Below are positions 8,509 through 29,140 of a DNA stretch of 64,000 nucleotides, one piece after another. Positions within the stretch are counted from its first letter, which is position 1, and each line of letters opens with the position of its first letter. Where the stretch lies: assembly GCF_000239275.1 (NCBI RefSeq), contig NZ_JH417572.1, positions 25,860 to 89,859 on the forward strand, written 5' to 3'. Made by a program: the position numbers and the translations under genes. This DNA comes from Megasphaera geminata F0357 (GTDB lineage: Bacteria; Bacillota; Negativicutes; Veillonellales; Megasphaeraceae). The notes beneath the pieces were generated by a model. That model saw only the letters and a program-made list of their open reading frames with translations, made no database searches and was not told the origin of the DNA.

Positions 8509-8615
8509 TTCCAATCAACCCTTTCACAATATATAGTAACCGGTACGATTATACCAGAACCGACAAAAGAAAAAGAAGGTCCTTCGCAAGAAGAACCTTC
8601 CTGTCCGAACATGTA

Positions 8616-9907: not shown

Positions 9908-10007
9908 ATATGTGACCTCCGAACTGTGTTAAATCACTGTATTTCCGCTGCCCGGTTACCCTGTTCTCCGGGAGCGTCTTAAATCGTACGTACCGAAATT
10001 ACGCTTC

Positions 10008-10079
10008 TTAAATCATGATCATCCCGTACAGCGCATGCACGGAAAAAGCCAAAACGAAAAGTGTGCCGATCTGTGTCAT
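10008..10079 (-). CDS. Small hydrophobic ORF (23 aa) in front of the amino-acid transporter
   Basis: Reads MTQIGTLFVLAFSVHALYG then MIMI, a single predicted membrane helix. It has a strong ribosome site (GAGAGGAGCAGAACT) ahead of the ATG and ends with TAA 100 bases before the transporter start. The arrangement resembles small accessory subunits such as MetS next to sodium-symporter-type amino-acid carriers, though I know no such subunit for this transporter family. It could instead be a regulatory leader ORF. Confidence 0.5.
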   Translation of the reverse strand: MTQIGTLFVLAFSVHALYGMIMI

Positions 10080-10119
10080 AGTTCTGCTCCTCTCTATATA
10101 ATTCACGCATTGAACCGAA

Positions 10120-10210
10120 ATCGTCCTATGAGGTAAAACGATTTTTTACATACCTAAATGATATCATCTATACCCGTTCGGCTCAATAATATCGTTTTTT
10201 CATGATACGA
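10120..10210. promoter_or_regulatory. Candidate operators in the divergent transporter/XRE region
   Basis: Two inverted repeats of the same half-site are seen: ATCGT (10120-10124) with ACGAT (10138-10142), and ATCGT (10191-10195) with ACGA (10207-10210). A perfect palindrome ATGATATCAT lies between them at about 10158-10167. They sit between the small ORF/transporter and the XRE gene and could be binding sites for that regulator. Confidence 0.35.
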
Positions 10211-10340
10211 AACTATTTATTCCTTTTGTTTCTTTATGATAGATTTTTGGACGGTTTTCTGCTACAATTCAATTAAAAGAGAGCTTTTTCGACTTTGTAC
10301 ATAAAAACACATATTTCTACGAAACTTTTTTAGGCGGACT

Positions 10341-11049
10341 ATGGTAAATTTACAGCAGGAAATCGGTAATAAGATTAAAATTTACCGCAAAAAGAAAAAT
10401 TTAACAATTCAGGAACTGGCCGATGCCATTTGCAAAAGCAAGGCCACCGTCAGCAAGTACGAAAACGGACAAATATCAATGGATATTTTGACGCTTTATG
10501 ACATTGCCCGCGCCTTAGGGATCCATGTGGAACAACTGCTCCACCCTGTAGAAGACAAAACGCTGGACATGACGGAAGCGCGATTGCCCGCTTTTTTCAG
10601 AAACACAAAACAATTATACCTTTATTTCTTCGACGGCCGCAGCAATGAAATCAGCCGCGGGGTCCTGGACGTCTTGGCCAAGACCGGCCCGAACACATAT
10701 AAAATCATGCTTTACGCCAACATCAACGCTTTACGAGACTTACCAGGACTGTGAAAGCACGTATTGGGGCACATTAATACACCATGATACGCTCTCGACG
10801 ATGACCCTCATGAATCAAAACACACAGACAGAGCAGCTGACGGTTACCATCCTCTCGGCATTCATTGACGTACCTGCCAAATGGGGCCTGCTCAGCGGCA
10901 TTTCGACGCGGCCGCTCATGCCGGTGGCAACAAAAGTCTGTTTGACAAAAAAACCGCAAAAAGAGACGGATGATTTCAAGAAAGCCCTGAAGATTTCAAA
11001 GGAAGATATACGTCACATGAAACTCTATAACATGCTTTCCATCACATAA
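10341..11049 (+). CDS. XRE-family transcriptional regulator (frame interrupted)
   Basis: The N-terminal helix-turn-helix of the Cro/C1 type (KIKIYRKKKNLTIQELADAICKS with KATVSKYENGQISM) covers residues about 10-65. The C-terminal part (about 110 residues) is of unknown type and may sense a ligand. The frame breaks at 10730-10732, where TTT should probably be TT, giving YANINAYETYQDCESTYWG. It is divergent from the small ORF and amino-acid transporter, so it may regulate them. Confidence 0.7.
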
Positions 11050-11240
11050 AGACAAAGCAAACTTCAGAATATGTTGGTAATGTCGTCAACAAAGCCGTTT
11101 ATTTCTATAATTTCATTCTGTTTCTTTATTTAGAAAGTTGTTTTTAAAACTTTTATGCACCGGCACGGGACACGTTTTTTAATTATGACCTGCATTTCCC
11201 GGATCTCCGGCCGGGCAGTGGCGGTAACGCCTTTTCCGCC

Positions 11241-11270
11241 TTGACAAGCCGCCTCGATTCCCCGTATAAT
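11241..11270 (+). promoter_or_regulatory. Promoter of tRNA-Thr
   Basis: Perfect TTGACA (11241-11246) and TATAAT (11265-11270) hexamers with an 18-base spacer, 13 bases before the tRNA. Confidence 0.9.
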
Positions 11271-11283
11271 AAATAATGTACTT

Positions 11284-11359
11284 GCCACTTTAGCTCAGCT
11301 GGTAGAGCATCTCATTCGTAATGAGAGGGTCGTTGGTTCAAATCCGATAAGTGGCTCCA
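11284..11359 (+). tRNA. tRNA-Thr (anticodon CGT)
   Basis: 76 bases with encoded CCA. The acceptor stem GCCACTT pairs with AAGTGGC; the D-loop is AGCTCAGCTGGTAGAGC. The anticodon arm TCTCA-TTCGTAA-TGAGA places CGT at positions 34-36, and GGTTCAAATCC forms the T-loop. It is a stand-alone unit with its own promoter and terminator. Confidence 0.97.
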
Positions 11360-11363
11360 AGTC

Positions 11364-11396
11364 AAAAAGAGCAATGATTCCCGTTGCTCTTTTTTT
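11364..11396 (+). terminator. Intrinsic terminator after tRNA-Thr
   Basis: AAGAGCAA/TTGCTCTT hairpin followed by a run of T. Confidence 0.9.
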
Positions 11397-11410
11397 GTCC
11401 GTATGCCAAG

Positions 11411-11455
11411 GGGCTGTAACAAAATGAGCGTTCCGCCTCATTTCAATTACAGCCC
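11411..11455. repeat. Imperfect inverted repeat (GGGCTGTAA ... TTACAGCCC)
   Basis: Outer arms GGGCTGTAA (11411-11419) and TTACAGCCC (11447-11455) enclose inner arms AAATGAG and CTCATTT. It forms a long hairpin without a T-run. It may be a small intergenic repeat element or remnant of insertion-sequence ends; no second copy was noticed in the window. Confidence 0.4.
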
Positions 11456-11644
11456 TTTATGTATAAACAACTGATTGAAATCGATATCCTTTCTACCAAA
11501 TAAACAGATATTACTCTCTTAAATTTTATATTTTTGAAATTCCGTTGCAAATATCACATATTTTCTTAAAAAGCCGTAGTATGATTATAAGCGAGAAAGA
11601 CTCACATACATTCCGGCCTGTCGGGGATGAAAGGAGGCGTACTT

Positions 11645-11893
11645 ATGTGGCAGGTTATTCCTGATTATTATAAGGATGAGACACGTTGTGTCAGCTGCGG
11701 CTGTTGCGTAGCCTTATGCCCTGTCGGCGCATTGACAATGAAAGCGGATGAAAACGGCAGAGTATTGCCGGCTTTTGATAAATATAAGTGTATCCGCTGT
11801 AACCGTTGCGTAGATGCATGCCGTATCTATGAAAGCTATACGCCGCAGGCGCTCAAAAGCTCAGCCTCCTCTCTTGAGGCCGTCATGAAATAA
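11645..11893 (+). CDS. 2[4Fe-4S] ferredoxin-like protein
   Basis: An 82-residue cytosolic electron carrier. Two cluster motifs are visible: CVSCGCCVALCP near the N-terminus and CIRCNRCVDAC about 40 residues later. The start at 11645 follows AAAGGAGG at good spacing; an in-frame upstream ATG at 11627 is less likely. The second motif lacks the usual proline after its last cysteine. It is monocistronic with its own terminator, and the redox partner is unknown. Confidence 0.8.
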   Translation: MWQVIPDYYKDETRCVSCGCCVALCPVGALTMKADENGRVLPAFDKYKCIRCNRCVDACRIYESYTPQALKSSASSLEAVMK

Positions 11894-11909
11894 AAGCCGA
11901 CTCCTCCAA

Positions 11910-11946
11910 ATAACGCCTTTTCCTGTGCGGAAAGGCGTTATTTTTA
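11910..11946. terminator. Bidirectional intrinsic terminator
   Basis: AATAACGCCTTTTCC/GGAAAGGCGTTATT stem with T and A runs on either side, between ferredoxin and the convergent LysR gene. Confidence 0.9.
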
Positions 11947-12846
11947 TATCTTTTGTTCCCTTTCTCCGTATCTTTCGTTCAAAAGCTGCCAGAAAGCGCG
12001 ACATGTTTTCGACATAAGACGGTCCCGCTTGCGTACGACTACGGCTGTCGTCGTTACGGGCGGTTCAAAAGGAATAAAACGGACACGCTTTGTTTCTTCC
12101 TGCAAAAGGCCGTCAATAGAAACGGCATTGGCAATTCCCGTCTCTACGAGAAGGGCGGCATTACCGATCAGATCAAAACGGCCGACTACATGCAGATCCT
12201 CCTCCGTGAGGCTGCCCTGTGACCATCGTACAAAATCAAAGCTCTGCATCCGGTGCCGCGAAGACAGGAGAAGGGGCATCTCTTTTACGTCGGCGGGGCA
12301 AATACATGCCTTTTCCGCCCATCTGCTGCCGGCGGCCGTTATAATGCCGACGCGATCGGCTTCGGGCAGGCGGATATACTCATAAGATTCCAGCCGCACC
12401 GGTTCCAGAAGAAGGCCGAAATCGAAAAGGCCGTGCTCCAGTCGTTCCGTGACAGTATCGGCATTACCGCTGAAAAATTCACAGGTTATGCCGGGATATT
12501 GCCGGTACAGTCCTGCAAAGAGATTGGCTACCAGATACATGCTGTGCGTTTCCGCCGCGCCGATCCGGATCGTACCGGCCAAATCGGTTGCGTCATTTTT
12601 TACTTCTTCTTCCGTCTGTGTCACGAGAGACAGGATTTCTTCGGCCCTCTGCCGCAAGTGCATTCCTTCTTCAGTAAGTATCGTATTTCTGTTAGTCCTC
12701 ACAAAAAGCCTTTTCCCCAGTTCCGCTTCCAGATCGGCAATTTGCCGTGATAAGGTAGGCTGCGTCACATGAAGAAGATTCGCCGCTTCCGTCATATTCT
12801 CTTCCCGCGCTACTGCCAGGAAATATTGCAGTGCCCGTATTTCCAT
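11944..12846 (-). CDS. LysR-family transcriptional regulator
   Basis: About 300 residues. An N-terminal winged helix-turn-helix (MEIRALQYFLAVAREENMTE, AANLLHVTQPTLSRQIADLE) is followed by a LysR substrate-binding domain. The start at 12846 has GAGGAG nine bases upstream. It is divergent from the CMD-cupin and flavodoxin genes. This arrangement is common for LysR regulators controlling CMD/cupin and flavodoxin-type redox genes, so those are the likely targets. The inducer is not known. Confidence 0.85.
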   Translation of the reverse strand: MEIRALQYFLAVAREENMTEAANLLHVTQPTLSRQIADLEAELGKRLFVRTNRNTILTEEGMHLRQRAEEILSLVTQTEEEVKNDATDLAGTIRIGAAETHSMYLVANLFAGLYRQYPGITCEFFSGNADTVTERLEHGLFDFGLLLEPVRLESYEYIRLPEADRVGIITAAGSRWAEKACICPADVKEMPLLLSSRHRMQSFDFVRWSQGSLTEEDLHVVGRFDLIGNAALLVETGIANAVSIDGLLQEETKRVRFIPFEPPVTTTAVVVRKRDRLMSKTCRAFWQLLNERYGEREQKI

Positions 12847-16543: not shown

Positions 16544-17446
16544 TTACTCTATACGGGCATGTTTTCTATTCTTCATACGCACTTCATATATCTTCCGTAC
16601 AGGTAAGACGGTTTTTAAGCTTTTAAAGCAAAGCTGCCCCATAAATGACACCTTACCCGCACCTGTCAATATACCGTCTTCATAGGTCATCAGCCCCCGG
16701 GATGATGGAAAAAGCGGCACATATTTTGCAAAACGAACGGCTATGAGAGCGTTCGTCACTTTCGGGCAGAGATGGATGAGCGCTTTACCGTGCAGAGCGT
16801 CTTCCAACTTGCATAAAAAGGGGTAGAGATAAAACTGCGTATACGAAGAAGTGCCGTAATTGCCTAAAATCTCAACGGCGCTTGCCGAGTCGTCAATACT
16901 GATAACCTTTGCACCCGATCTTACAAGCTGTCCGTAATAAAAAACAAGGAAGTCGGCAATCTTTTTTATAACCGCCTCAAATTCAAAAACCTCTTTACGC
17001 ATGTCTCGCAGAACCGTTTCGGTTTCCATTAATCCGAAAAGCACATTTAAAGGCCCGCTGCCTTCAATAAAAACAGGTATTTTCTGCCGTCTGAAATATG
17101 AACAGCACTTGATTATTTCTTCCAAACGCCGGACATATACGGCATGGGGTATTCTCACATTGAGAAAATCGGCAAAGCTTTCGTAAGCACCGCGCATACT
17201 GCGAGGACCGCTTTTTTCATCCCCGCCATGAAGAATACCGCCGCAAGCGCCGACTTCAACAACATGGTCAAACGGCAAAAAGACCATTTTCTCATTGAAG
17301 GCCGTCTGCACGCGTACGGCGATATCCGTCATGTATTTTCTGTGCCAATAGACATCCGGTACAGGCAATCCGCTGCGGGTAATAATTTCCTGTATCTCCT
17401 TTTCCCGCTCCGTCAGCGGGCACTCAAAGGGTACAATCCGTGCCAT
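16544..17446 (-). CDS. URO-D family methyltransferase, short paralogue A
   Basis: 300 residues, related to the uroporphyrinogen decarboxylase/MtaA superfamily rather than to true HemE. A candidate zinc site is visible as H225-L-C227 and C273 (QLCFK). It is 40-odd percent similar by eye to the gene at 23728-24603, sharing FLPFDHVVE, GPRS and the TYEDG-GK-FMGQ-C tail. It begins one base after the stop of the 362-residue partner, so the two are co-translated and may form a complex. The likely role is methyl transfer to or from a corrinoid protein; the acceptor is unknown. Confidence 0.7.
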   Translation of the reverse strand: MARIVPFECPLTEREKEIQEIITRSGLPVPDVYWHRKYMTDIAVRVQTAFNEKMVFLPFDHVVEVGACGGILHGGDEKSGPRSMRGAYESFADFLNVRIPHAVYVRRLEEIIKCCSYFRRQKIPVFIEGSGPLNVLFGLMETETVLRDMRKEVFEFEAVIKKIADFLVFYYGQLVRSGAKVISIDDSASAVEILGNYGTSSYTQFYLYPFLCKLEDALHGKALIHLCPKVTNALIAVRFAKYVPLFPSSRGLMTYEDGILTGAGKVSFMGQLCFKSLKTVLPVRKIYEVRMKNRKHARIE

Positions 17447-18535
17447 TTATGCCTGTTCAAGCCCCTTCGGAAAGGCGCCTTTTTTCGCACCGCCGCCATA
17501 TGTCGTAGCGGCATTCATGAGCGCAATAAGGTTTTCTGCAGGCGTGCCCACAGGAGTGGTACAGCCGGGGCTCAAAACAAAGCCGCACGGATTGTCCGCC
17601 GCTTCGCGAAGACAACGGATAACCTCACGGCGCATGTCATCCGGCGTTCCGTTACGCAAGAGATCGACAGGATCGACATTGCCGATGATGCCGATGCGGC
17701 TGCCGAACAGATTCTTCAAATCCGTCATGTTCTCAATGTTGTCGACGGAAAAGGAAGAAATGCCGAAATCTACGATTTCCTGCCATCTGTCATGAGTTGT
17801 GCCGCAAATATGCATACTCGGCTTGGAGCCGAAAATTTTCGTCATCCGTTCTACTGTCTGTGTCATATAAGGGACGGCGTATTTTTTGAACATTCGCGGC
17901 GAAAGGAGATTGCGTGCAATGATCGGTTCGGCAATAGACGCCTTGATTCCGCAGTTCTTGTAGAGGCCTTCCGCCGCCGCCACGACATTGTCCGTCGCGA
18001 ACTGGAGGAGCTTTTCCGTTTCCTCGGGTTTCTTCATCATATCTTTGAGGAATTTTTCCGTCCCGATAAGAAAGGCTGCAACCGTAAAAGGACCGCCCAT
18101 GCCGGTGCCGATAATATGGGTTTTGCCGAATTTTTCCTGCAACCGGTTAAAAGCTTCCACCATAATCGGAAAACGGCCGTCTTTCGTTACGTCGACAAGC
18201 CGCATAGTATCAAGTTCATCATATGAATCAATAGCATGGCCCTCTACATGAGACACATTGTTTTCCGGTGTCACAATGGGTACTCCCAACGCTTCGGCAA
18301 CACCGCGCAACCCGACGCCCATGCCCATATTGTCGGCGCCGAAATCTTCGGCAATCTTTGTCTCCACTTCGACCATAAGATCTGCGGAAAAATAATAATC
18401 CCTATTTTGAATACCGTAACGCAGAGGACTCGTTTCTGCTGCCGTAAGCACGGCCGGGATACGATCCACCTCTTCTCCTGCCGCATAAGCCGTAAGCCGT
18501 TCACGCGGCGTCATTTCCGTTTTGATCAGTTCCAT
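17447..18535 (-). CDS. URO-D family methyltransferase, long paralogue A (MtaA/CmuA-like)
   Basis: 362 residues. The zinc-thiolate pattern HxC...C of corrinoid methyltransferases is present as H242-I-C244 and C325 (SPGCTTP). The chosen start, MELIKTEMTPRERL at 18535, matches its paralogue at 25692 and has GAGGAG about ten bases upstream; a GTG at 18544 is too close to that site. It is probably the enzyme that demethylates a substrate or moves a methyl group between a corrinoid and a thiol. The shared corrinoid protein is encoded at 23060-23710. Confidence 0.75.
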   Translation of the reverse strand: MELIKTEMTPRERLTAYAAGEEVDRIPAVLTAAETSPLRYGIQNRDYYFSADLMVEVETKIAEDFGADNMGMGVGLRGVAEALGVPIVTPENNVSHVEGHAIDSYDELDTMRLVDVTKDGRFPIMVEAFNRLQEKFGKTHIIGTGMGGPFTVAAFLIGTEKFLKDMMKKPEETEKLLQFATDNVVAAAEGLYKNCGIKASIAEPIIARNLLSPRMFKKYAVPYMTQTVERMTKIFGSKPSMHICGTTHDRWQEIVDFGISSFSVDNIENMTDLKNLFGSRIGIIGNVDPVDLLRNGTPDDMRREVIRCLREAADNPCGFVLSPGCTTPVGTPAENLIALMNAATTYGGGAKKGAFPKGLEQA

Positions 18536-18606
18536 GTCATACACTCCTCAGCGCAAAAATATGAACCTTTTTTCTTACCACGTTTATATACTAATCTGCC
18601 CGTTTA

Positions 18607-18637
18607 ATTATAGCATTGCCCCGACAGTGGTACTAAT
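18607..18637 (-). promoter_or_regulatory. Promoter of methyltransferase module A (ATTAG-N20-TATAATTAAA)
   Basis: On the minus strand TATAAT lies at 18612-18607, followed by TAAAC, with ATTAG (18637-18633) exactly 20 bases upstream of it. The same architecture precedes metN and the double-cubane gene. The -10 is preceded by TGC (extended -10). Confidence 0.55.
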
Positions 18638-18732
18638 CGGCATTTTCTATACAAGGCAAGCATTTATTATTTTTCTGTATAAGGCAGAGCCGTACCGTAA
18701 AAAGATACCGGTGGTAACCCGTACCCGAATCC

Positions 18733-19551
18733 CTACCACATAGGCACCAAAGCCCCTTTATCATGTTGTGCGAAGTAAGCTTTCATTTCGTCTGTCTGCG
18801 ACGCCTTAATCAAATCCTGTACCCATTGCGCATCCTTATCTTCCTGTCGAACCACAAACCCCAAAGCATAATCTTTGCTGTCTTTCGATTCAGCAAGATA
18901 CTTGGAAGGATCCTTACCGGCATTGGCCATATGTGCCGATGCCAGCGCAATAGCATCATAATCTCCGATAGCCTGCGCCAACGAGGTCATTTCCGCCTCA
19001 ACAAATTTAAATTTATGCGGATTATCTTTAACGTCATAAATCGTAGCATTTTCGACACCCTGATTTAAAGTGATAAGGCCCAATTCAGCCAACATTTTCA
19101 ACCCGCGATTACGATTTGTCGTATCATTGCAAAGACCGATAACGGCACCATCGGGAATTTGCTTTACATCCGTATACTTATCGGAATAAAGACCGAAGCG
19201 CGCGTAATGCGTATACGGTTTAACCATCACAAAATCCGTCCCCTTGGATTTATTATAGCTTTCCAAATACGGCAGATGTTGATACCAATTGACATCAATA
19301 CTCTTTTCGCCGAGTGCGACATTCGGTAAAATGCTATCTTCAAAAGGTGTTACTTCCAACGTATAACCCAGCTTTTCCAGAGGCATACGCAAAAGTTCCG
19401 CCCGCTCCGCACCGTCGGCTCGAACACCTAATTTAATAACCTTCTTATCACCTTGAGCCGTACCGCTGTTGTCCAAAGTTCCGCATCCGGCCAGAACAAA
19501 CAGTAAAGAGGTCACTATTAATACCATAATACATACTACTGTCTTTTTCAT
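18733..19551 (-). CDS. metQ: MetQ/NlpA-family substrate-binding lipoprotein
   Basis: 272 residues. A lipoprotein signal with LAGC places the lipidated cysteine at residue 23. The mature part (KLGVRADGAERAELLRMPLE, VNWYQHLPYLESYN) is the NlpA fold that binds methionine or related compounds outside the membrane. It is the third gene of a metN-metI-metQ operon. Its position between two corrinoid methyltransferase modules suggests that the transporter may import the methyl donor or methionine; that is inference. Confidence 0.85.
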   Translation of the reverse strand: MKKTVVCIMVLIVTSLLFVLAGCGTLDNSGTAQGDKKVIKLGVRADGAERAELLRMPLEKLGYTLEVTPFEDSILPNVALGEKSIDVNWYQHLPYLESYNKSKGTDFVMVKPYTHYARFGLYSDKYTDVKQIPDGAVIGLCNDTTNRNRGLKMLAELGLITLNQGVENATIYDVKDNPHKFKFVEAEMTSLAQAIGDYDAIALASAHMANAGKDPSKYLAESKDSKDYALGFVVRQEDKDAQWVQDLIKASQTDEMKAYFAQHDKGALVPMW

Positions 19552-19567
19552 TTCTTTTCCTCTCTTC

Positions 19568-20236
19568 TTATTTTAATTTATTATATACAATATCCCCGAT
19601 ACACTGAATTACCAATACCAGGATAACTAAGATAACGCAGATGGAATACATAACCATGTCATTAAAATTCTGATACCCGTAAATCATAGCCGTCGCCCCC
19701 AACCCGCCGGCACCGATTGCCCCGGCCATGGCCGTTGCCCCGAGAAGATTGATAATTGCCAGTACGACACCGGAAACAATAGCCGGAACGGCTTCGACGA
19801 GCATGACGCGCATAACAATTTGTATTTTAGATGCTCCGAACGATTGCGCGACTTCAATAAGAGCCGGATTTACTTCCTGTAATGCATTCTGTATGATACG
19901 CCCCATAAAGGGCGAGCATGCAAAAGTCAACGGGACGATAGCCGCCTGCCAGCCGATAGAGGTTCCTACAAGAAATCTCGTCAGCGGTATGATGGATATC
20001 ATCAGAATGATAAACGGAAAGGAACGGACAACACTGACAAATACATCAAAAACCCGATATAAGAGCGGGTTTTCACAAAGTCCGCCTTTGCGAGTAAGCG
20101 CCAACATGAGGCCGATACACATACCGAAGAATACGGAAAGAATCATTGCCCATAAAAGCATCTTCATCGTCGCCAGAAAAGACGGAATGATAAGCACGCT
20201 GAAAAGCTGTCCGAAAGACATATTTTGTAACGGCAT
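19568..20236 (-). CDS. metI: MetI-type ABC transporter permease
   Basis: 222-residue inner-membrane permease with about five helices. The coupling segment EVAQSFGASKIQIVMRVMLVEA, which contacts the ATPase, and AMAGAIGAGGLGATAMIYGYQ are typical of MetI. It starts one base after the metN stop and precedes metQ by 16 bases, so the operon order is metN-metI-metQ. The frame is intact. Confidence 0.88.
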   Translation of the reverse strand: MPLQNMSFGQLFSVLIIPSFLATMKMLLWAMILSVFFGMCIGLMLALTRKGGLCENPLLYRVFDVFVSVVRSFPFIILMISIIPLTRFLVGTSIGWQAAIVPLTFACSPFMGRIIQNALQEVNPALIEVAQSFGASKIQIVMRVMLVEAVPAIVSGVVLAIINLLGATAMAGAIGAGGLGATAMIYGYQNFNDMVMYSICVILVILVLVIQCIGDIVYNKLK

Positions 20237-20237
20237 C

Positions 20238-21236
20238 TTATATCACCCGCTCTTTCTCACTTGCCTCAGTTTTGAGATAATGCCATATACAGTTTTTATT
20301 TTCCAAATAAGCAGCCACTCTTTCTCTGTCCCTATCTGTAATGCCCAGCCGGAAAACAGCCAGTCTGTCACTGGAAAATGTTTCGATACCGCCGCCGAGC
20401 GTCTTAAAAGATATATCCAACGTACGGGCTATATCGGCAAGAAGATTGAGTGTATCATCCGTTACTTCATAAGCAATTTGGATTATATTGCCGTCTGCCG
20501 CATTATACCGTTCTTCCTCTTCACCGAGAAGACGTTTCAGTGCGTTCGGCCGTTTAATAAATATAGATTTCACAGACCCTTCGGCGGCAATTTTTCCGTT
20601 CTCCAGAATACACGCCTTATTACAAATCTGACGAACAACTTCCATTTGATGAGTCACTACAATAACCGTAATACCGGTCTTTACATTAATTTGCTGCAAA
20701 AGATTCAAAACAGAACTGCTTGTGTTAGGATCCAATGCCGATGTAGCTTCATCACTCAACAGTAATTTCGGTTCCATTGTCAATGCTCTGGCAATAGCCA
20801 CTCGCTGCTTTTGCCCGCCCGATAAACTGCGGGGACGTACAGCAGCTTTATCGGCAAGGCCCACTAATTCGAGCAAATCAGTAACCTTTTTCCTGATTTT
20901 TTCATTTGAATACCCCCAACACTTCATCGGTAAGGCAACATTTTCATAAACCGTGCGGCGTTCCAAAAGAGAGAAATTCTGTAACACCATGCCTACACGA
21001 CGACGAACTTCCCTCATTTCCTTATATGTCAAATCCTTTACTTCCTTGCCGTCAAGAAAAATGTGCCCGCTATCATACCCGGCAAGACCGTTGATACAGC
21101 GCAACAGCGTAGACTTCCCCGCACCGCTGCGTCCGACAAGAGCATAAATATCACCGTCTTCAATCGTAAGGTTAATATTATCCAAAACAGTAACACCGTC
21201 AGACCATAATTTTTTCAAATTCTTAATTTCAATCAA
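20238..21236 (-). CDS. metN: MetN-type ABC transporter ATPase
   Basis: 332 residues. Walker A is GRSGAGKSTLL, the signature LSGGQKQRVAIARAL, Walker B LLSDEATSALDP. A C-terminal extension of about 85 residues fits the NIL ligand-sensing domain that allows methionine trans-inhibition. The start codon is TTG 21236 with GGAGGG eight bases upstream; a TTG start lowers translation. It is the first gene of metNIQ and has a leader with a possible attenuator. Confidence 0.88.
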   Translation of the reverse strand: MIEIKNLKKLWSDGVTVLDNINLTIEDGDIYALVGRSGAGKSTLLRCINGLAGYDSGHIFLDGKEVKDLTYKEMREVRRRVGMVLQNFSLLERRTVYENVALPMKCWGYSNEKIRKKVTDLLELVGLADKAAVRPRSLSGGQKQRVAIARALTMEPKLLLSDEATSALDPNTSSSVLNLLQQINVKTGITVIVVTHQMEVVRQICNKACILENGKIAAEGSVKSIFIKRPNALKRLLGEEEERYNAADGNIIQIAYEVTDDTLNLLADIARTLDISFKTLGGGIETFSSDRLAVFRLGITDRDRERVAAYLENKNCIWHYLKTEASEKERVI

Positions 21237-21271
21237 AAATACTCCCTCCGCTATAATTAACCATGCTGAAA

Positions 21272-21320
21272 CAAAAAAAGCATCTATACGTGCGCATGTA
21301 AATACTTGCGATATAGATGT
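21272..21320 (-). promoter_or_regulatory. Terminator-like hairpin in the metN leader (possible attenuator)
   Basis: On the minus strand CATCTATA (21319-21312) pairs with TATAGATG (21288-21281) around a partly self-complementary loop, followed by seven T. It lies between the promoter (-10 at 21339-21334) and the TTG start, about 35 bases before the gene. It is too small for a SAM-I riboswitch. Confidence 0.5.
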
Positions 21321-21333
21321 CTTTCCTTGTTTA

Positions 21334-21364
21334 ATTATACCATTTTGTAATTTTAGGCTCTAAT
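21334..21364 (-). promoter_or_regulatory. Promoter of metNIQ (ATTAG-N20-TATAATTAAA)
   Basis: TATAAT at 21339-21334 with ATTAG (21364-21360) exactly 20 bases upstream, preceded by TGG (extended -10). Confidence 0.55.
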
Positions 21365-21390
21365 AAAAACATTTCATGTTATACTGCGAG

Positions 21391-21411
21391 TTTATCATAA
21401 AATATGATAAA
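21391..21411. promoter_or_regulatory. Perfect inverted repeat upstream of the metN promoter
   Basis: TTTATCATA-AAA-TATGATAAA, a 9-3-9 palindrome centred about 74 bases before the probable metN transcription start. It contains a T-N11-A LysR-type box. A related half-site TTATGATAA lies just before the LysR gene at 28.2 kb. Confidence 0.45.
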
Positions 21412-21479
21412 TTAAGTTTTACTTAGTTAGAAATTTGCAGAAAAGGCCGTACCGTCCTGTACTGAATATATCACGTCTC

Positions 21480-23057
21480 TTAGAACAATAAACACTTCGC
21501 AAAGAGGCGGTCATAATTTTCACTGTTACTGAGTTCAATATAATGAATATCCGCTGCCAGCTCTTCCGTTTCCTGCTTGGCTTTTTCCGAAAGAAGAGTG
21601 GACAACGCCCCTGTCTTGGCGGAGTTGCCCGCATAAATGAGTTTATCCGGGCTCACCGGCGGCAGAAGCCCGATTTCCAAGAGGGATTCAGCCGGCAAAT
21701 GAGCGCCGAACTGTCCGGCAATAAGGACGCGGTCCAAGTCTTTCGCCTTGAGACCGGCATGGTCGAGAAGCACTTCGATGCCTGAACGAATCGCTCCTTT
21801 AGCAAGTTGTACCTGACGCACGTCGCTCTGTGTGACAACAAGATCTTTCCCTGTCTTGGCAGTATGGATGGTAAATTCACGTTTCGTACCGTTGTAGTGA
21901 AGCATAGTTTTACGCCAATCATCGTTGTCGAAATTTTCCGGTTTATTGAAGACCCCGCGCTTCGTAACCAACCCCGTCCTCACGAGTTCACGAACGACCG
22001 CCAAAATACCGCTGCCGCAAAGGCCGACAGGAGGTACATCACCGATAACGGCGAGGTCGATACCGTCGGCACCGATTCGGATATCTTCAATCGCCCCGGC
22101 GGCCGCGCGCATGCCGGACGTAATATTCATTCCTTCCAGTGCCGGCCCTGCGGCACAGGAACAGGAATACATGCCGTCAGGCGTAGCCAAAACGAGTTCG
22201 CCGTTAGTACCGATATCAATGAAAAGGGCATTATCTCCGGTATTCTTCAAATCGCAAATATGAACCCCTGCCACAATATCCGCTCCAATGTAAGCCGATA
22301 CGGACGGCAACAGGTAGACAAGCGTGTCATCGTTACCGACAAGTCCCAGTTTTTTCGCCTTTAAGCGCAGGGCTTTCACAAAAACGGGCCGATACGGCGA
22401 CTTGCCGATAGGCCGGGCATCGACGCCAGCAAGCATGTGTTGCATCGTACAGTTGGCCGCCACATCGATTTCAATAAGCGAATCTGCGGCAATTCCCCTT
22501 TCAGCACAGACTTTTTCAGCCAGTTCATTAAGGCCGCCGACAATGGCTTTCTGCAGGGCCGCAATACCTGCAACACCGGCTTCCGTCTCATAGGTGATGC
22601 GTGTCAGTACATCGAGCCCGTATATTTTCTGCGGATTAATCATGGCGCCGGTAGCCGCTTCTTCGCCATTACGCAAATCGATAAGAGAGACAACGACCGT
22701 TGTCGTACCTATATCGACAGCCAGCCCGTAGCCGTCACGGGGATTATCGGGGATAATATTCGGTTTGAAGCCGTCCGTCGTAAAAACGTGTTCTTTTTCC
22801 GCTTCCGGCACTTCAACTGCAAGAACATCGCCGGTACTGCGAGCCATACAAGCAAGACGATACCCGGCGCGAATATCTTCTGCCGAAAGAAGGCGTTCTT
22901 CGGGCGCCGTAATCTCATCAACGGTGCCGCTTAAAATACGTACCTTGCATTTGCCGCATGTCCCCCTGCCGTTACAGCTGTTGGCCAGAGGTATCTTTTC
23001 GGCAAGGAGCCGTTCCATCAAGGAACGGCTCCCGTCACCGCGCACTGTTACTTTCAT
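21480..23057 (-). CDS. RACo-type ATP-dependent reductive activator of corrinoid protein
   Basis: 525 residues. The N-terminal [2Fe-2S] ferredoxin domain has C28, C34, C37 (CNGRGTCGKC) and C70. An ASKHA-type nucleotide-binding region follows (AVDIGTTTVVVSL, LFIDIGTNGEL, GQFGAHLPAESLLEIGLLP). Proteins of this family use ATP to drive reduction of inactive Co(II) to Co(I) in corrinoid methyltransferase systems. It follows the corrinoid protein gene by two bases, so the two are translationally coupled. Confidence 0.85.
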   Translation of the reverse strand: MKVTVRGDGSRSLMERLLAEKIPLANSCNGRGTCGKCKVRILSGTVDEITAPEERLLSAEDIRAGYRLACMARSTGDVLAVEVPEAEKEHVFTTDGFKPNIIPDNPRDGYGLAVDIGTTTVVVSLIDLRNGEEAATGAMINPQKIYGLDVLTRITYETEAGVAGIAALQKAIVGGLNELAEKVCAERGIAADSLIEIDVAANCTMQHMLAGVDARPIGKSPYRPVFVKALRLKAKKLGLVGNDDTLVYLLPSVSAYIGADIVAGVHICDLKNTGDNALFIDIGTNGELVLATPDGMYSCSCAAGPALEGMNITSGMRAAAGAIEDIRIGADGIDLAVIGDVPPVGLCGSGILAVVRELVRTGLVTKRGVFNKPENFDNDDWRKTMLHYNGTKREFTIHTAKTGKDLVVTQSDVRQVQLAKGAIRSGIEVLLDHAGLKAKDLDRVLIAGQFGAHLPAESLLEIGLLPPVSPDKLIYAGNSAKTGALSTLLSEKAKQETEELAADIHYIELSNSENYDRLFAKCLLF

Positions 23058-23059
23058 AT

Positions 23060-23710
23060 TTATTTACGCCCTGTAAGACGATCTGCCTGATGCACCGCAT
23101 CAACGGCATTCGGCGAGAACGTATCCGCACCGATTTTATCAGCAAACACCTGCGTAATAGGAGCCCCGCCGATCATGACCTTAACGGAATCGCGGAGACC
23201 GCGTTCCTTAAGCATGTTAACAACCGTACCCATCCCCTCCATTGTCGTCGTCATGAGCGTAGACATACAGAGAACATCGGCATGTTCTTTTTCAACTGCA
23301 TCGACAAAATTCTGCAAAGGAACATCTTTGCCGAGGTCAATAACACGGTACCCGCCCGTTTCCATCATCGTCTTGACAAGGTTCTTACCTATATCATGCG
23401 TATCGCCCTCGATAACACCGATAACGGCAACCTTTTCTTCAGCTTCCGTGTTCTGATCCAGATGAGGCTTCAAGACATCCACGCCGGCATACATAGCGTC
23501 GGCACAGAGAAGGATATCGGAAACAAAATATTCTTCTTCTTCATACATCTTTCCGGCGCGGGTCATACCGTCTACGAGGCCTTCCATAATACCGTCCAGC
23601 GCTTCATAGTCATTGTCGATGTACGCCTGTGCCGCCTCTACGACATCTTCATCATCCATCTCAAATACATCGTCAGACAAGCGTTTCAACAATTCCTCTT
23701 TTTCGCTCAT
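23060..23710 (-). CDS. Corrinoid (B12-binding) methyl-carrier protein
   Basis: 216 residues. A helical methionine-synthase-type cap domain (residues 1-90) precedes a B12-binding Rossmann domain. The signature D103-T-H105-D-I-G places histidine 105 as the lower cobalt ligand. MtaC/MtbC-like proteins carry the methyl group on cobalt between two methyltransferases. It is the only corrinoid protein in the window, so both URO-D modules must share it unless others exist elsewhere. The start follows AAGGAG. Confidence 0.9.
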   Translation of the reverse strand: MSEKEELLKRLSDDVFEMDDEDVVEAAQAYIDNDYEALDGIMEGLVDGMTRAGKMYEEEEYFVSDILLCADAMYAGVDVLKPHLDQNTEAEEKVAVIGVIEGDTHDIGKNLVKTMMETGGYRVIDLGKDVPLQNFVDAVEKEHADVLCMSTLMTTTMEGMGTVVNMLKERGLRDSVKVMIGGAPITQVFADKIGADTFSPNAVDAVHQADRLTGRK

Positions 23711-23727
23711 ACTCGAATGCTCCTTTC

Positions 23728-24603
23728 TTATTGCAATGTAATTTTTAAGATTTTATTCGCATTTACAGTGGATTTCGCATTTTTAATACACATTTGGCCC
23801 ATAAATCCGGCTTTGCCGACAGCATACAGCCACCCGTCTTCATAGGTCAATGTACTCCTGTCCGTTACACCGAGAGGTTCATAGATACCCGTTTCTGTAC
23901 CGGTAAGAGCAAAAGCCGTTTTCGGGCAAAGGAGGAACAGCGCCTTATGCTCTACCGTTGCTTCAAGGACTTTAAGGAACGGTGCTACCCTGTTTACAGT
24001 ATAATCCGTCAGTATTTTCGGTCCCATAATAGTAACCGTCGCCACGGCATCACCGTAGCTGATAATTTTCACGCCTGTATCAACGGCGGCCTTGATATAG
24101 GTTTGCAAATTCCGTTCTATCTTGTCGAAGATCTGATTCATCAGGTCGGGCTTACGGCGCATCCCCTTAAAAACTTCCTTCAAATCAATGAGACTGTTCA
24201 GAACAGTCACGGGACCGACAACTTCAAGAATAACTGTCTCACCCTCATCTGCCAGGATTCGGCAGGCCTGTAATACTTCAGCCATGCGCCCCTTCGTAAC
24301 ATCAAGATCGGGCAGTGCGGAAATTTCTTCAAGTCTCGTGCAGACATACCCGTTGCTGCGCGGGCCCACCTGTGCACTGCCGTAGTTGACAGACGCGCCG
24401 AGCGCTTCCGCTTCGACGACATGATCGAAAGGCAGATAGACAACTTTATCATTGAGTTCGGCTTTCACGGCGCGAGCCAGAGTAACCATATCGGCGCCGT
24501 TTCTATAGACATCGGGGATAGCCAGGCCGCATTTTTGAACGAGGGAAACTATGGAATCTTCCTTCGTTCCGTAACTGCAGGGATAGTCTTTAATTTCAGC
24601 CAT
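23728..24603 (-). CDS. URO-D family methyltransferase, short paralogue B
   Basis: 291 residues, paralogue of the 16544-17446 gene. The tail motif TYEDG-GKAGFMGQMC is conserved (C272). The histidine that precedes the central cysteine in paralogue A is replaced by leucine (L224-L-C226), so any zinc site must be built differently or is lost. It begins immediately after the stop of the long paralogue B and lies 17 bases before the corrinoid protein gene. It is probably the second methyltransferase or an accessory subunit of this corrinoid system. Confidence 0.7.
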   Translation of the reverse strand: MAEIKDYPCSYGTKEDSIVSLVQKCGLAIPDVYRNGADMVTLARAVKAELNDKVVYLPFDHVVEAEALGASVNYGSAQVGPRSNGYVCTRLEEISALPDLDVTKGRMAEVLQACRILADEGETVILEVVGPVTVLNSLIDLKEVFKGMRRKPDLMNQIFDKIERNLQTYIKAAVDTGVKIISYGDAVATVTIMGPKILTDYTVNRVAPFLKVLEATVEHKALFLLCPKTAFALTGTETGIYEPLGVTDRSTLTYEDGWLYAVGKAGFMGQMCIKNAKSTVNANKILKITLQ

Positions 24604-25692
24604 TTATGCCAGCTCCATTCCTTTAGGCATCCGTCCCATCTTAGCACCTTTACCGTAAATCGTCGCATTATTCATAATAGCGACGACATTTTCTTTCGGC
24701 GTGCCGATGGGTGTCGTGCAGCCGGGCGTAAGGATAAATCCTTTCGGGGTGTCCCCGGCTTCACGCAGACAGCGGATGACTTCGTTTTTCATATCTTCGG
24801 GCGTGCCGTTACGAAGAAGATCGACAGGATCGATATTGCCGACAACGGCAACTTTATCGCCGTAAAGATTTTTAAGGTCTTCCATGTTTTCGCAGTTGTC
24901 GACGGAAAAAGACGAAATACCCCAGTTCACAAAATCTTCCCAACGGTCATGTGTGGAGCCGCAAACATGCAGCCCCGGAGCTTCGCCGTAAAGATCGGTC
25001 AGACGCTGAATCAGTTGTCCCATGTAAGGAACGGCATACTTCTTGAAAAGGCGCGGGGCCAGAAGATTGCGGGCGATAATCGGTTCAGCCAGAGAAGATT
25101 TGATCCCCGTTTCCTTATAGAGCTGTTCGCAGCAGGCATAAATATTATCGTTAGCGTATTGGAGCAGCTTTTCCGTCTCTTCCGGCTTCTTGATCATATC
25201 TTTAAGGAATTTTTCCGTACCGATGAGAAAGGCAGCCAGGGTGAAACATGCGCCCATTCCCGTATCGATAATATAAGTATCTCCCCATTTATCCTGAAGG
25301 CGTTTAAATGCTTCCAGCATAATAGGAAGACGGCCGTCTTTGTGGATATCGACGATTTTTCTGCCGTCCAGCTCATCATATGACTGTATTGCCGGCCCGT
25401 CTACATGCGAAACGTTGTTCAACGGAAATGCCAAAGGAACACCCAAGGCTTCAGCCACACCGCGAAGCCCGATACCCATGCCCATGTTGTCGGCGCCGAA
25501 ATCTTCAGCCAAATGAGATTCCACTTCAACCATCAGATCCGCATCAAAATAGTAATCTTTATTTTGAATACCGTATGTAATCGGGCTCGTCTCCCCGGAA
25601 CTGAGAATGGTCGGAATGCGGTCAACTTCTTCGCCGTCCATATACTTTGTAAGTCGTTCTTTCGGAGCCATTTCCGTCTTAATTAATTCCAT
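24604..25692 (-). CDS. URO-D family methyltransferase, long paralogue B (MtaA/CmuA-like)
   Basis: About 362 residues, closely similar to paralogue A over its full length (shared DYYF, FGADNMGMG, GLRGVAEALGVP, AEPIIARNLL, SFSVDN, NVDPVDLLRNGTP). The HxC...C zinc site is retained (LHVCGSTHDRW and TPGCTTPIGTP). The start MELIKTEMAPKERL at 25692 has AAAAGGAG upstream; a longer ORF from 25743 is unlikely. It is the second gene of the operon that begins with the double-cubane protein. Confidence 0.75.
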   Translation of the reverse strand: MELIKTEMAPKERLTKYMDGEEVDRIPTILSSGETSPITYGIQNKDYYFDADLMVEVESHLAEDFGADNMGMGIGLRGVAEALGVPLAFPLNNVSHVDGPAIQSYDELDGRKIVDIHKDGRLPIMLEAFKRLQDKWGDTYIIDTGMGACFTLAAFLIGTEKFLKDMIKKPEETEKLLQYANDNIYACCEQLYKETGIKSSLAEPIIARNLLAPRLFKKYAVPYMGQLIQRLTDLYGEAPGLHVCGSTHDRWEDFVNWGISSFSVDNCENMEDLKNLYGDKVAVVGNIDPVDLLRNGTPEDMKNEVIRCLREAGDTPKGFILTPGCTTPIGTPKENVVAIMNNATIYGKGAKMGRMPKGMELA

Positions 25693-25781
25693 GTTATACT
25701 CTCCTTTTTCTCGCCAGGCCTTCAACTTCCTTGCATATCCCATTCTCTCCGTCCCCGGGGATACAAGCCGCTACAATCTTA

Positions 25782-26933
25782 TTAAAGCATTTCAATAAAC
25801 GCCGCCAAACGTGTATTGAGCTGACCGACATCGGTCCTGGAATAATCCGTTTCAATGTAAATATAGGGAATTTCCTTTTTTTCCGTCACGAAACGATGAA
25901 TTTGTTTTGATTCAACACTGTACGTATGACATGCCTGCAAGACCATTTCGACGACACCGTCGATTTTATATTCGTCAATCATCGAGTCGAGAAGTTCAAA
26001 GCGGTTCTTATTCGGCGACATGACCGAACAGCCGATGCCGAGATAGCGTTCACCGATCGCACCGTAAATATCCTCCGTATCTTCCTCAACAAGCCGTTCA
26101 ATGGCTTTGGCTCCGGAACAGTTTTCATAGCCCACAACAACGCCGCCGTTATCTTCGATCGCCTGAATCACTTTTTCCGTCGCGCCGCCCATAGGACAGC
26201 CCGTAATAAGAATACGCGGACGTTTATCGATGTGTTTGCCGGCACCGTAGTCGGCTTCTATCTTTTCCGTCATAGCTTTGATTTCCTCGGGCAGAATACT
26301 CCGGTCCAGCTTGAACGTACTTCCGTAAAGGACCTTAAAGAGATCGTATCCCATAATCGGAGCCGGGTCATGCTTCATGACATGATAAAGTCCCTGTAAA
26401 GCTTTGCGCACTTCATTTTCCGTATGAACGGCTTCTCGTATATTTTCTTCCGTAATGGTGACGCCGAACTTCTCTTCCAGCTTTTCCTTCAACAGGAGAA
26501 TCGACTCTCTCCAGAATTTCTGCCCCCGCTCATCCTGTGACTGAGGCATCTCCATAACGTATACGTCTTTGAACTGACCCATCATTTCGTACATCTTCTT
26601 TTTACCGTCACACGTCATTTCGCCGACAATGAGATCGGAGAAATAAAAATACGGACATTTATCGGTCTTGGCAAAGCCGTAACTCGCTTTAATGAGCGGA
26701 CAGAGGTTTTTCGGCAGATCCCGTTCAGCCACTTCAATCGTTTCGTCCGACATGGAACAGAGACTGACCGTTGCGGCCCCCATAGCCATCGGCAGTTCTT
26801 TCGGAAAATACGTGCAATACGAACCGACAATAGGGATGCCTTTATCTTTAGCTTCTTTCACGGCGAGAAAAGAATTCTTACGCTGTTCCGCAAATTCTTC
26901 AAATACTTCAGGTAAATCTTTTACAAGTTCCAT
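25782..26933 (-). CDS. Double-cubane cluster protein (2-hydroxyacyl-CoA dehydratase family, YjiM-like)
   Basis: 383 residues, related to HgdB/HgdC-type dehydratase subunits. Conserved cysteines appear in GSYCTYFP, NLCPLIK, TDKCPYF, ENCSGAK and QACHTYS, and ITGCPMGG is also present. Single-subunit members of this family are known to carry an [8Fe-9S] double-cubane and to be reduced by a partner ATPase, which is present at 27251-28024. No second dehydratase subunit is present, arguing against a true dehydratase. It heads the operon leading into methyltransferase B, the corrinoid protein and RACo. Confidence 0.75.
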   Translation of the reverse strand: MELVKDLPEVFEEFAEQRKNSFLAVKEAKDKGIPIVGSYCTYFPKELPMAMGAATVSLCSMSDETIEVAERDLPKNLCPLIKASYGFAKTDKCPYFYFSDLIVGEMTCDGKKKMYEMMGQFKDVYVMEMPQSQDERGQKFWRESILLLKEKLEEKFGVTITEENIREAVHTENEVRKALQGLYHVMKHDPAPIMGYDLFKVLYGSTFKLDRSILPEEIKAMTEKIEADYGAGKHIDKRPRILITGCPMGGATEKVIQAIEDNGGVVVGYENCSGAKAIERLVEEDTEDIYGAIGERYLGIGCSVMSPNKNRFELLDSMIDEYKIDGVVEMVLQACHTYSVESKQIHRFVTEKKEIPYIYIETDYSRTDVGQLNTRLAAFIEML

Positions 26934-27195
26934 AGTACCCCTCTTTTCAGTATTTACTTTAATTATAGGGCAGACTTTTCATACGGGCTAATATGTATTA
27001 CTCTTTCTTTAGTATTCCTTTTTTCTATGTTCTCATTCAAAACCATGTGTTTATACTATGAGGCAGAAATAACTTACAGAGCTTTGCAACCACTTCACAG
27101 AAATTGTCTTTATCATTCAGAAGAGGTTCAAATACCGCCATATACAAACAATGAAACATGAAAGTACAATACAAACGCAGAGATAACCGCATTAT
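26934..27195. other. Promoter region between double-cubane protein and activator genes
   Basis: About 260 bases of AT-rich sequence without a convincing ORF. It holds the promoter for the minus-strand operon (next entry). A palindrome-like ATACT-N8-AGTAT-type stretch occurs upstream of it near 27000-27020. Confidence 0.4.
26962..26992 (-). promoter_or_regulatory. Promoter of double-cubane/methyltransferase B operon (ATTAG-N20-TATAATTAAA)
   Basis: TATAAT at 26967-26962 with ATTAG (26992-26988) exactly 20 bases upstream, 29 bases before the start codon of the first gene. Confidence 0.55.
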
Positions 27196-27197
27196 TA

Positions 27198-27243
27198 AAG
27201 CAAAAAAAACACCGCCTGTTACGAGGCGATGTTTTTTGCTTTA
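27198..27243 (-). terminator. Intrinsic terminator of the activator gene
   Basis: CATCGCC/GGCGGTG-type hairpin enclosed in AAAGC/GCTTT arms and followed by eight T on the minus strand. It separates the activator from the double-cubane operon. Confidence 0.85.
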
Positions 27244-27250
27244 TCTGATT

Positions 27251-28024
27251 TTATCCGTCCGCTTCTGCGGCAAGGACCGCCGCACCGATGGCGCCGGCAA
27301 AGCGCGCCTTCGGATCGGAACAGACTTTCCTGCCGAAAGAATCACTCAGCAGTTTAAGAAAATATACATCTTCACAAAGGCCGCCCGTCAAGAAAATAGG
27401 CAGATCCTGCTCGGAGAGTTTCGCATATTCCTGTCGTACCTTCTTAACGACCGACTGTAAAACACCCCAGGCAATATTAGGTTTTGACGTTCCCTGCCCG
27501 ATAAGGGAAACGATTTCCGATTCGGCAAAAACCGTACACATGGCGCTGATTTGCAATTGTTCCGTATGGTCACGGGCAATTCTGTCCAGATCCGCCAGTG
27601 TCACATTAAGCCTGTTTGCCATGATTTCAAGAAATTTTCCGGTACCGGCGGAACACTTGTCGTTCATATAGAATTCCATAACCTTTCCTTTGTGGCAGGA
27701 AATAACTTTTGTATCCTGTCCGCCTATATCGACGATGTTGAACGTGTCTTCACCGAAGAGGACGCTGGCCCCCTTCGCATGGCATGTAATCTCCGTAACG
27801 CGTTTTTTGGCCCCTTCCACGGCCTGACGGCCATATCCTGTGGAGATACAGTACATATCCTCAAAATTATAACCTTTAATACGCAGTTTTTCTTTAATTT
27901 CTTTAAGTGCCTCCAAACTGCTCCAGCCTGTGGGAATAACAAACGTGTCCAAAATTCCCCGTTCCTTATTCATGATCACCGACTTGGCGCAGGTCGAGCC
28001 GATATCTATACCTAAATATGTCAT
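27251..28024 (-). CDS. ASKHA activator ATPase of the double-cubane protein (HgdC/YjiL-like)
   Basis: 257 residues. Nucleotide-binding motifs are LGIDIGSTCAKSV, VDIGGQDTKV and FLTGGLCED. The two cluster-binding cysteines of the homodimeric [4Fe-4S] cluster lie in DKCSAGTGKF and SAMCTVFAESEIVSLI. Such activators couple ATP hydrolysis to delivery of a very low-potential electron to the dehydratase or double-cubane partner. GGGGAG precedes the ATG. It has its own terminator and is divergent from the LysR gene. Confidence 0.85.
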   Translation of the reverse strand: MTYLGIDIGSTCAKSVIMNKERGILDTFVIPTGWSSLEALKEIKEKLRIKGYNFEDMYCISTGYGRQAVEGAKKRVTEITCHAKGASVLFGEDTFNIVDIGGQDTKVISCHKGKVMEFYMNDKCSAGTGKFLEIMANRLNVTLADLDRIARDHTEQLQISAMCTVFAESEIVSLIGQGTSKPNIAWGVLQSVVKKVRQEYAKLSEQDLPIFLTGGLCEDVYFLKLLSDSFGRKVCSDPKARFAGAIGAAVLAAEADG

Positions 28025-28231
28025 TATAAAGCGTCTCCCCTTTTACGGATACCGATATCCCGTTTGCTCTTTTCTTCATTATACATGACTTGTAAAGCGT
28101 CACGTCATGTTCAGAGAAACTTATGCTCCGTTTATTAATACATAGAATTTATCTATTGGTTTATTTAATGAAAATTATGTTATGATAAGAAAGTAATTTT
28201 GTACATTATATATTCAGTAAGGAACACCGTC

Positions 28232-29140
28232 ATGATGGAATTAAAACAACTTGAATCATTTGTTGCCGTTATTAAATACGGCAGCTTCACTAAAGCGGCA
28301 CATGTACTCTATATGTCACAACCGTCTATCAGCACGCATATCCGCGCTTTAGAGCGGCAGCTTGATACACCTCTGATTATCCGCACTACGAAACAGATCC
28401 GTATTACGCCGCGAGGCCGTGAGCTTTACGGCATGGCGATATCCATGCTGAAATTACGCGACGATCTTCTCTCAAAATGGCAGCATGAAGATTCGCATGA
28501 AATTATTATCAGCGCGTCCACCATCCCGTCCATCTATTTGCTCCCGCAAATTCTGCGGGGGTTTCATAAACTCTACCCTGATATTCCCTTTACGATTAAT
28601 CAGGACGTAAGCTCAAAGGTCGTCGCCTCCCTTTTAAAGGGACAGATCCAAGTCGGCTTTACCGGTATGGAAACGGAGGAAGACGCGCTTGAATTCGTTC
28701 CTGTCGCCTTCGATCGCATGGTAGTCATCACACCGAACTCACCGGTCTTCCGTCAGATGGCCTCCCAAGACGACGCGGCTTTGCAGATCCTTTCGAAGTA
28801 TCCTTTGATTCTCCGCGATAAAGGCAGCGGCAGTAAAGCCCATATTGACAGTATTTTTGAGAAGCTCCGTCTCACGCCCGACAAATTACATGTAACAGCT
28901 CATTTAAGCGAACCCGAAGGGATCAAGAATCTCGTTATTAATCATGACGGTGTCTCGGTCATTTCCGAACCGGCAGTCACCAATGCGGTTAAAGAAGGGA
29001 CCCTTCTCAAATTTAACCTGCCGAAAAAACTGGCCTTGCGCCAGCTCTATATGGTGTACCACAAACACGATACTCAATCAAGCCATGTAAAACACTTTAT
29101 CAGCTATGTCAAATCCCTCGGCTGGAAAAAACAGGACTGA
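28232..29140 (+). CDS. LysR-family transcriptional regulator
   Basis: About 302 residues. The N-terminal helix-turn-helix (MELKQLESFVAVIKYGSF, AAHVLYMSQPSISTHIRALE) is followed by a type 2 periplasmic-binding-like ligand domain resembling the CysL/CbbR group. Start ATG 28232 (or 28235) follows TAAGGA. It is divergent from the activator ATPase and next to the corrinoid locus, so it is the best local candidate for its regulator. The ligand is unknown. Confidence 0.85.
   Translation: MMELKQLESFVAVIKYGSFTKAAHVLYMSQPSISTHIRALERQLDTPLIIRTTKQIRITPRGRELYGMAISMLKLRDDLLSKWQHEDSHEIIISASTIPSIYLLPQILRGFHKLYPDIPFTINQDVSSKVVASLLKGQIQVGFTGMETEEDALEFVPVAFDRMVVITPNSPVFRQMASQDDAALQILSKYPLILRDKGSGSKAHIDSIFEKLRLTPDKLHVTAHLSEPEGIKNLVINHDGVSVISEPAVTNAVKEGTLLKFNLPKKLALRQLYMVYHKHDTQSSHVKHFISYVKSLGWKKQD

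Follow-up and report, generated by a model that had tools for sequence, protein, structure and literature searches.

The window analysed is a 64,000-nucleotide stretch of Megasphaera geminata F0357 DNA (contig positions 25860-89859 of NZ_JH417572.1) from a 1.8-Mb genome in 57 contigs that is 88% complete. It contains a locus of putative corrinoid methyltransferase genes, where eleven intact genes on the minus strand occupy 16544-28024. A sequence-only reading had described this gene set, and all of its genes were found intact, on that strand and at the coordinates it gave. A LysR gene lies outside this range, is divergent from the activator ATPase gene, and is part of the locus. The features are as follows.

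About 28235-29140 (open reading frame from 28199; domain match from residue 13), plus strand: selenium-metabolism LysR regulator
28025-28234: regulatory region shared by the LysR gene and the cluster, with blocks conserved with Colibacter
27251-28024, minus strand: HgdC/BadF-type ATPase, probable double-cubane reductase (DCCPR) (TIGR00241, 228 bits, cut-off 125; PF01869)
25782-26933, minus strand: double-cubane-cluster protein (DCCP) (NF040772, 530 bits, cut-off 350)
24604-25743, minus strand: long-1, Mlp2-clade methyltransferase (HxC...C site, motifs HVCG and PGC)
23728-24603, minus strand: short-1, Mlp1 methyltransferase (C226 and C272 kept, HxC His absent, H61 present)
23060-23710, minus strand: corrinoid protein (PF02607 and PF02310, base-off motif GDTHDIG)
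21480-23057, minus strand: RACo-type ATP-dependent corrinoid reductive activase (PF14574, PF17651, PF00111)
20238-21236, minus strand: MetN, ATPase of the MetNIQ lineage linked to the cluster (NIL domain scored below cut-off)
19568-20236, minus strand: MetI permease, partner of the cluster MetN and MetQ
18733-19551, minus strand: MetQ substrate-binding lipoprotein (PF03180, tree position)
17447-18544, minus strand: long-2, Mlp2-clade methyltransferase (HxC...C site, orthologue of the single Colibacter Mlp2)
16544-17446, minus strand: short-2, strongly divergent Mlp1 paralogue (H61 and HxC His both present)

The locus is almost certainly a variant of the mlp gene cluster (MGC) named by Kountz & Balskus 2023 (PMC10418091). 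Like the published MGC, it encodes several MtaA-like proteins, its own corrinoid protein and a Ram/RACE-type activase on one strand, with no folate methyltransferase (PMC10418091). It also shares the accessory genes reported for MGCs, namely DCCP with its reductase, a selenium regulator and methionine transporters, and a selenocysteine-using host; MGCs show an 87% association with the selenocysteine machinery (PMC10418091). The cluster type behind the "undescribed" pathway of the sequence-only reading had therefore already been described, and that description covers the missing folate methyltransferase as well as the DCCP and the methionine transporters. MGC genes run in one direction with no divergent gene between them, with no more than 2 kb between core genes and no tetrahydrofolate methylase within 20 kb. 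The cluster in the window runs in one direction and has no divergent gene inside. Long-1, short-1, the corrinoid protein and RACo are separated by 0-17 bases; long-2 and short-2 sit 2.9 kb past RACo, across MetNIQ, and alone would exceed the spacing limit. PF00809 domains were found only on contigs C25 (FolP) and C40 (MetH), and the window is on C13. No corrinoid:folate methyltransferase was found in the host genome, where FolP and MetH were the only proteins with pterin-binding domains. This agreed with the earlier statement that none is nearby, and folate-linked methylotrophy was rejected. The corrinoid protein and RACo matched their counterparts in the Clostridium ljungdahlii MGC with 280 and 545 bits, respectively. 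Gene linkage was kept across many Bacillota, and the genes were not scattered in relatives.

An alignment of the shorts was used to scan genome contigs and returned 79 loci, including the C. ljungdahlii MGC; the gene order published for it fixed the identities of Mlp1, Mlp2 and Mlp3. Trees of 251 and 53 proteins were built with FastTree and IQ-TREE. In both programs and with high support, the shorts fell in the Mlp1 clade and the longs in the clade holding C. ljungdahlii Mlp2 (ClMlp2). The shorts branched with ClMlp1 and have the Mlp1 length of about 290 residues. The placement of short-2 inside Mlp1 is less sure because its end branch is long (1.65). The longs belong to the ClMlp2 clade (support 100) in a distinct subclade; together with the Mlp2 of Colibacter, Dorea, Faecalicatena and relatives, they formed a fully supported group. 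The other Mlp2 subclades were unstable between FastTree and IQ-TREE, so only two well-supported clade levels were used. HemE function was rejected for the four proteins, as the hemE model gave 58-62 bits for the longs and 19 bits or no match for the shorts, far below its cut-off of 303. No HemE was found in the host genome (88% complete).

Type 1 MGCs encode both Mlp2 and Mlp3. No Mlp3 was present among the four UroD proteins found in the incomplete host genome or the two found in Colibacter massiliensis. Without Mlp3, the locus counts as an MGC but falls outside type 1 as published. Of the loci compared, 45 had full flanks and encoded Mlp1, a corrinoid protein and RACo; Mlp3 was missing from only three of these, namely the window, Colibacter and a scattered Lachnospiraceae locus (L053). 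The window also differs from the published MGC in having the Mlp2-Mlp1 pair twice and an Mlp2 of a separate, MetNIQ-linked subclade.

Mlp genes were found in two of the 17 genomes searched of the genus and family, the host and its relative Colibacter massiliensis (Veillonellaceae), a group that is not named in the main text of PMC10418091. The other genomes had at most one remote UroD protein each. The Colibacter locus (L042/G004) contains LysR, the activator, DCCP, Mlp1, the corrinoid protein, RACo and Mlp2 between the same flanking genes, which are the selenium LysR, an amino-acid permease and an FprA-type protein, and on the other side an M20 amidohydrolase. A difference is that it has a single Mlp1 and a single Mlp2, and that a galactonate-dehydratase-like enolase-superfamily gene (L042 13228-14409, plus strand) lies inside the cluster where the window has MetNIQ. 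Long-1 and long-2 are 70% identical, and short-1 and short-2 are 33.7% identical. Both long/short pairs of the sequence-only reading are real, but with the shorts sharing only 34% identity they did not arise by recent copying of a single pair. The single Colibacter Mlp2 shares 83% identity with long-2 and 72% with long-1, and the single Mlp1 shares 69% with short-1 and 37% with short-2, indicating that the window has an extra long-1 and an extra, fast-changing short-2 relative to Colibacter. These data do not distinguish gain of MetNIQ and the extra genes in one lineage from loss in the other. Two substrate modules, as proposed earlier, are possible but unproven, as the Colibacter locus manages with a single Mlp1 and a single Mlp2, and short-2 is a very divergent paralogue.

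3D structures were modeled using AlphaFold2. The long-2 model (pLDDT 94.9) matched MtaA (4ay7) with a TM score of 0.81-0.88, and MtaA 4ay7 was also the top PDB match of the short-1 model (pLDDT 92.8). The longs thus share their fold and their HxC...C zinc site with the MtaA/MtbA methylcobamide:coenzyme M methyltransferases, at 26-29% identity. In contrast to those enzymes, the window proteins scored below all curated NCBIfam cut-offs for MtaA, MtbA and mtaA_cmuA; the longs reached 164 and 182 bits against TIGR01463 (cut-off 235), and the MtaA and MtbA models scored far below cut-off. The shorts have about 50 residues fewer, and Mlp1-type shorts usually lack the zinc-site His. Their sequences do not fit the role of inert partners, as both keep the C...C pair and short-2 keeps HxC as well. 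MtaA-type UroD proteins with their own corrinoid protein and their own RACo support the corrinoid methyl transfer predicted by the sequence-only reading.

The only active-site remark on Mlp1 in PMC10418091 is that several Mlp1 deviate from His-Cys-Cys. In 89 Mlp1-clade proteins, both cysteines were invariant and the HxC His was missing in 64. A His at short-1 position 61 was present in 84 of the 89 and in none of the 152 Mlp2 and Mlp3 proteins compared. The five Mlp1-clade proteins without H61 all kept the HxC His, so every Mlp1-clade sequence has at least one such His. The Mlp1 invariants include C9, H61, C226 and C272 (short-1 numbering), and H61 comes after a barrel strand in the short-1 model. 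Relocation of the zinc ligand to another barrel strand, with H61 joining C226 and C272, would explain this pattern. A 290-residue Mlp1-like branch in loci L022 and L040 (also L007-L010) has the HxC His and lacks H61, and its L022 member adjoins MttB-like and pyrrolysyl-tRNA-synthetase-like frames. This suggests another job for the compact UroD fold.

RACo has its 2Fe-2S, middle and ASKHA C-terminal domains (Fer2, Raco_middle, RACo_C_ter). As no other RACo was found in the host genome, it might also serve MetH, an 893-residue frame without the AdoMet activation domain (L129 604-3285, minus strand); yet relatives without the cluster likewise have a short MetH frame. The activator ATPase gene adjoins the DCCP gene, and the double-cubane family was assigned from sequence, with a DCCP score above the NF040772 cut-off. 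The closest solved structures are 6eno/7yyl (E 2.6e-80), with which eight cysteines align. The double-cubane protein is not known to act as a corrinoid activator. The "two reductive activators" of the sequence-only reading are therefore correct as gene families only.

The MetNIQ transporter was also examined. In the tree, the window MetQ was sister to the MetQ of seven Lachnospiraceae MGC loci, with other MGC-linked MetQ at a greater distance, and it stood apart from the MetQ proteins found in its own genus. The scores of MetN and MetI agreed with this pattern. Both MetN and MetI were present in 7 of the 9 loci that have the Mlp2 subclade of the window and in 4 of the remaining 77 (p 2e-6 in Fisher's test, a value that overstates independence because the seven loci are related). 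Several MetNIQ-carrying Lachnospiraceae MGCs have the order DCCP/MetN/MetI/MetQ/Mlp2/Mlp1, which is close to MetN/MetI/MetQ/long-2/short-2 in the window. The MetQ tree, the subclade linkage and the recurring gene order all indicate that MetNIQ is a co-inherited part of the cluster and no incidental neighbour, which supports the sequence-only reading on this point, and that in Lachnospiraceae MGCs its lineage goes together with this Mlp2 subclade.

The divergent LysR matched the selenium-metabolism LysR family NF040786 with 284.5 bits (cut-off 250), and its Colibacter orthologue scored 281. The host genome has the selenocysteine machinery, comprising SelD, tRNA-Sec, SelA and SelB, together with YedE and D-proline reductase genes (PrdA/C/D). 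Its SelD contains an in-frame UGA in the catalytic motif CAGUGAKIG. In the window, formate dehydrogenase alpha (FdhA, about 60650-62984, plus strand) has an in-frame UGA at 61214-61216 within the motif HCARIUHAPSVAG, the usual selenocysteine position. The FdhA frame is split by a frameshift near 61990, either real or an assembly error. A second double-cubane protein is encoded elsewhere in the genome (L184, G000:C15:45001-60000, 4246-5517), directly after SelA and near the D-proline reductase genes, and its position beside SelA is a further tie of the DCCP family to selenium.

The gaps between genes are 0-38 bases inside the DCCP-to-RACo block, inside MetNIQ and inside the long-2/short-2 pair. 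Between blocks, they are 317, 243 and 188 bases after the activator, before MetNIQ and before long-2/short-2, respectively. As these gaps and a strong terminator-like stem 3' of the activator gene (27237-27204) divide the blocks, several transcripts are possible. A promoter-like site lies at 28233-28205 on the minus strand, and the density of such sites was no greater than chance. No conserved LysR box was resolved by comparing the two sequences from the window and Colibacter. No SAM or cobalamin riboswitch was matched in the cluster by Rfam, and control of this kind was rejected; a single HrrF match (E 0.67) was at chance level.

Demethylation of methylated selenium (or sulfur) compounds without folate has been proposed for MGCs, by which most hosts would recycle methyl-selenium while a minority would salvage methionine, and ClMlp2 transfers a methyl group from methylcobalamin to selenide (PMC10418091). 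We consider it likely that the locus is an altered MGC that demethylates selenium compounds for selenium reuse. Selenium is favored over sulfur because of the LysR family match, the SelA, SelB, tRNA-Sec and SelD genes and the FdhA UGA in the window. The LysR of the selenium-associated family would control the locus. Mlp2 and Mlp1 would demethylate different methylated selenium compounds, perhaps also sulfur analogues, onto the single corrinoid protein, and RACo would keep the corrinoid as Co(I) or reactivate it to that form. The carrier would pass the methyl group on to a thiol instead of folate, and the released selenide or selenol would supply SelD and hence selenoproteins. MetNIQ would most likely import a methylated seleno- or thio-amino acid for the linked Mlp2, with selenomethionine and Se-methylselenocysteine as obvious candidates. 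DCCP and its ATPase may provide low-potential reduction, possibly of oxidised selenium species. A related system is SdmABC of Methanococcus voltae and M. maripaludis, in which a corrinoid protein and MtaA-like methyltransferases mobilise methylated selenium (PMC11097638). Deletion of sdmC abolishes dimethylselenide use in M. voltae (PMC10418091), and the homologous operon of M. maripaludis increases on selenium depletion (PMC11097638). SdmABC differs in being archaeal; studies of it covered only two Mlp2 and the corrinoid protein, and the text consulted mentions no MetNIQ or DCCP (PMC11097638).

Several points weigh against selenium reuse. Identity of the longs to the assayed ClMlp2 is only 31%, and they lie in a separate subclade, so their substrate may differ. 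The cluster lacks Mlp3, which type 1 MGCs have by definition; methionine transporters were also cited as a sign of sulfur metabolism (PMC10418091); and the host genome has a nitrogenase-like gene set, although this lies away from the cluster and has no counterpart in Colibacter. A dedicated importer-plus-demethylase for selenium amino acids is a tentative idea, in which the MetNIQ lineage would feed selenomethionine or Se-methylselenocysteine to the Mlp2 subclade, no Mlp3 would be needed, and zinc binding by Mlp1 via the moved H61 would give a substrate range unlike that of known MtaA relatives.

The enzymes might instead act mainly on methionine, methylthio compounds and methanethiol, with MetNIQ importing methionine-like sulfur compounds. 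The His-Cys-Cys sites fit sulfur as well as selenium, MetNIQ is linked to the Mlp2 subclade, and methionine transporters and methionine salvage were both listed for MGCs, the latter for a minority (PMC10418091). However, the authors linked methionine-salvage MGCs to MarHDK-like genes and to hosts that lack selenium traits (PMC10418091), whereas the selenium traits of this host are complete and its regulator is a selenium LysR. Colibacter has no nitrogenase-like protein, and the cluster has no SAM or other riboswitch. We regard this sulfur function as unlikely. MarHDK methionine salvage was rejected, as the nitrogenase-like set lies far from the cluster among hyp genes and Colibacter has none. 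In that set (L191, G000:C46:1-15000, 738-12435), NifH/NifD/NifK-type genes are interleaved with hypF, hypD, hypE and a HydF-like GTPase gene, along with a second NifD/NifH-like pair; no curated nitrogenase model scored above cut-off, and no PF00148 protein was found in Colibacter.

Two further explanations appear much less probable still. An undescribed methylotrophic demethylation, in which a separate acceptor takes up methyl groups from two substrate modules to supply carbon or energy, would suit two long/short pairs sharing one corrinoid carrier. It is at odds with the prior description of the cluster type, with a genome holding only FolP and MetH and no corrinoid:folate methyltransferase, with the single pair in Colibacter, and with shorts (33.7% identical) that are no recent duplicate. 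The Mlp-corrinoid-RACo core could also work alone, with MetNIQ or DCCP and its ATPase as bystanders, and we give this equally little weight. Colibacter has the enolase-superfamily gene instead of MetNIQ at its locus and separate transcripts are likely, but the MetQ phylogeny tracks the MGC rather than the genus, the MetN-MetI-MetQ-Mlp2-Mlp1 order recurs in Lachnospiraceae MGCs, and the second DCCP adjoins SelA in the host genome.

Over 100 genera of anaerobes have MGCs, gut bacteria among them, and just one Mlp among their enzymes has been assayed (PMC10418091). This lineage helps narrow the system. Mlp3 can be missing while the remaining cluster persists beside the selenium regulator. The minimal set is narrowed to the one Mlp1, one Mlp2, corrinoid protein and RACo of Colibacter, and the MetNIQ lineage offers a testable route to the substrate of the cluster via ligand binding.

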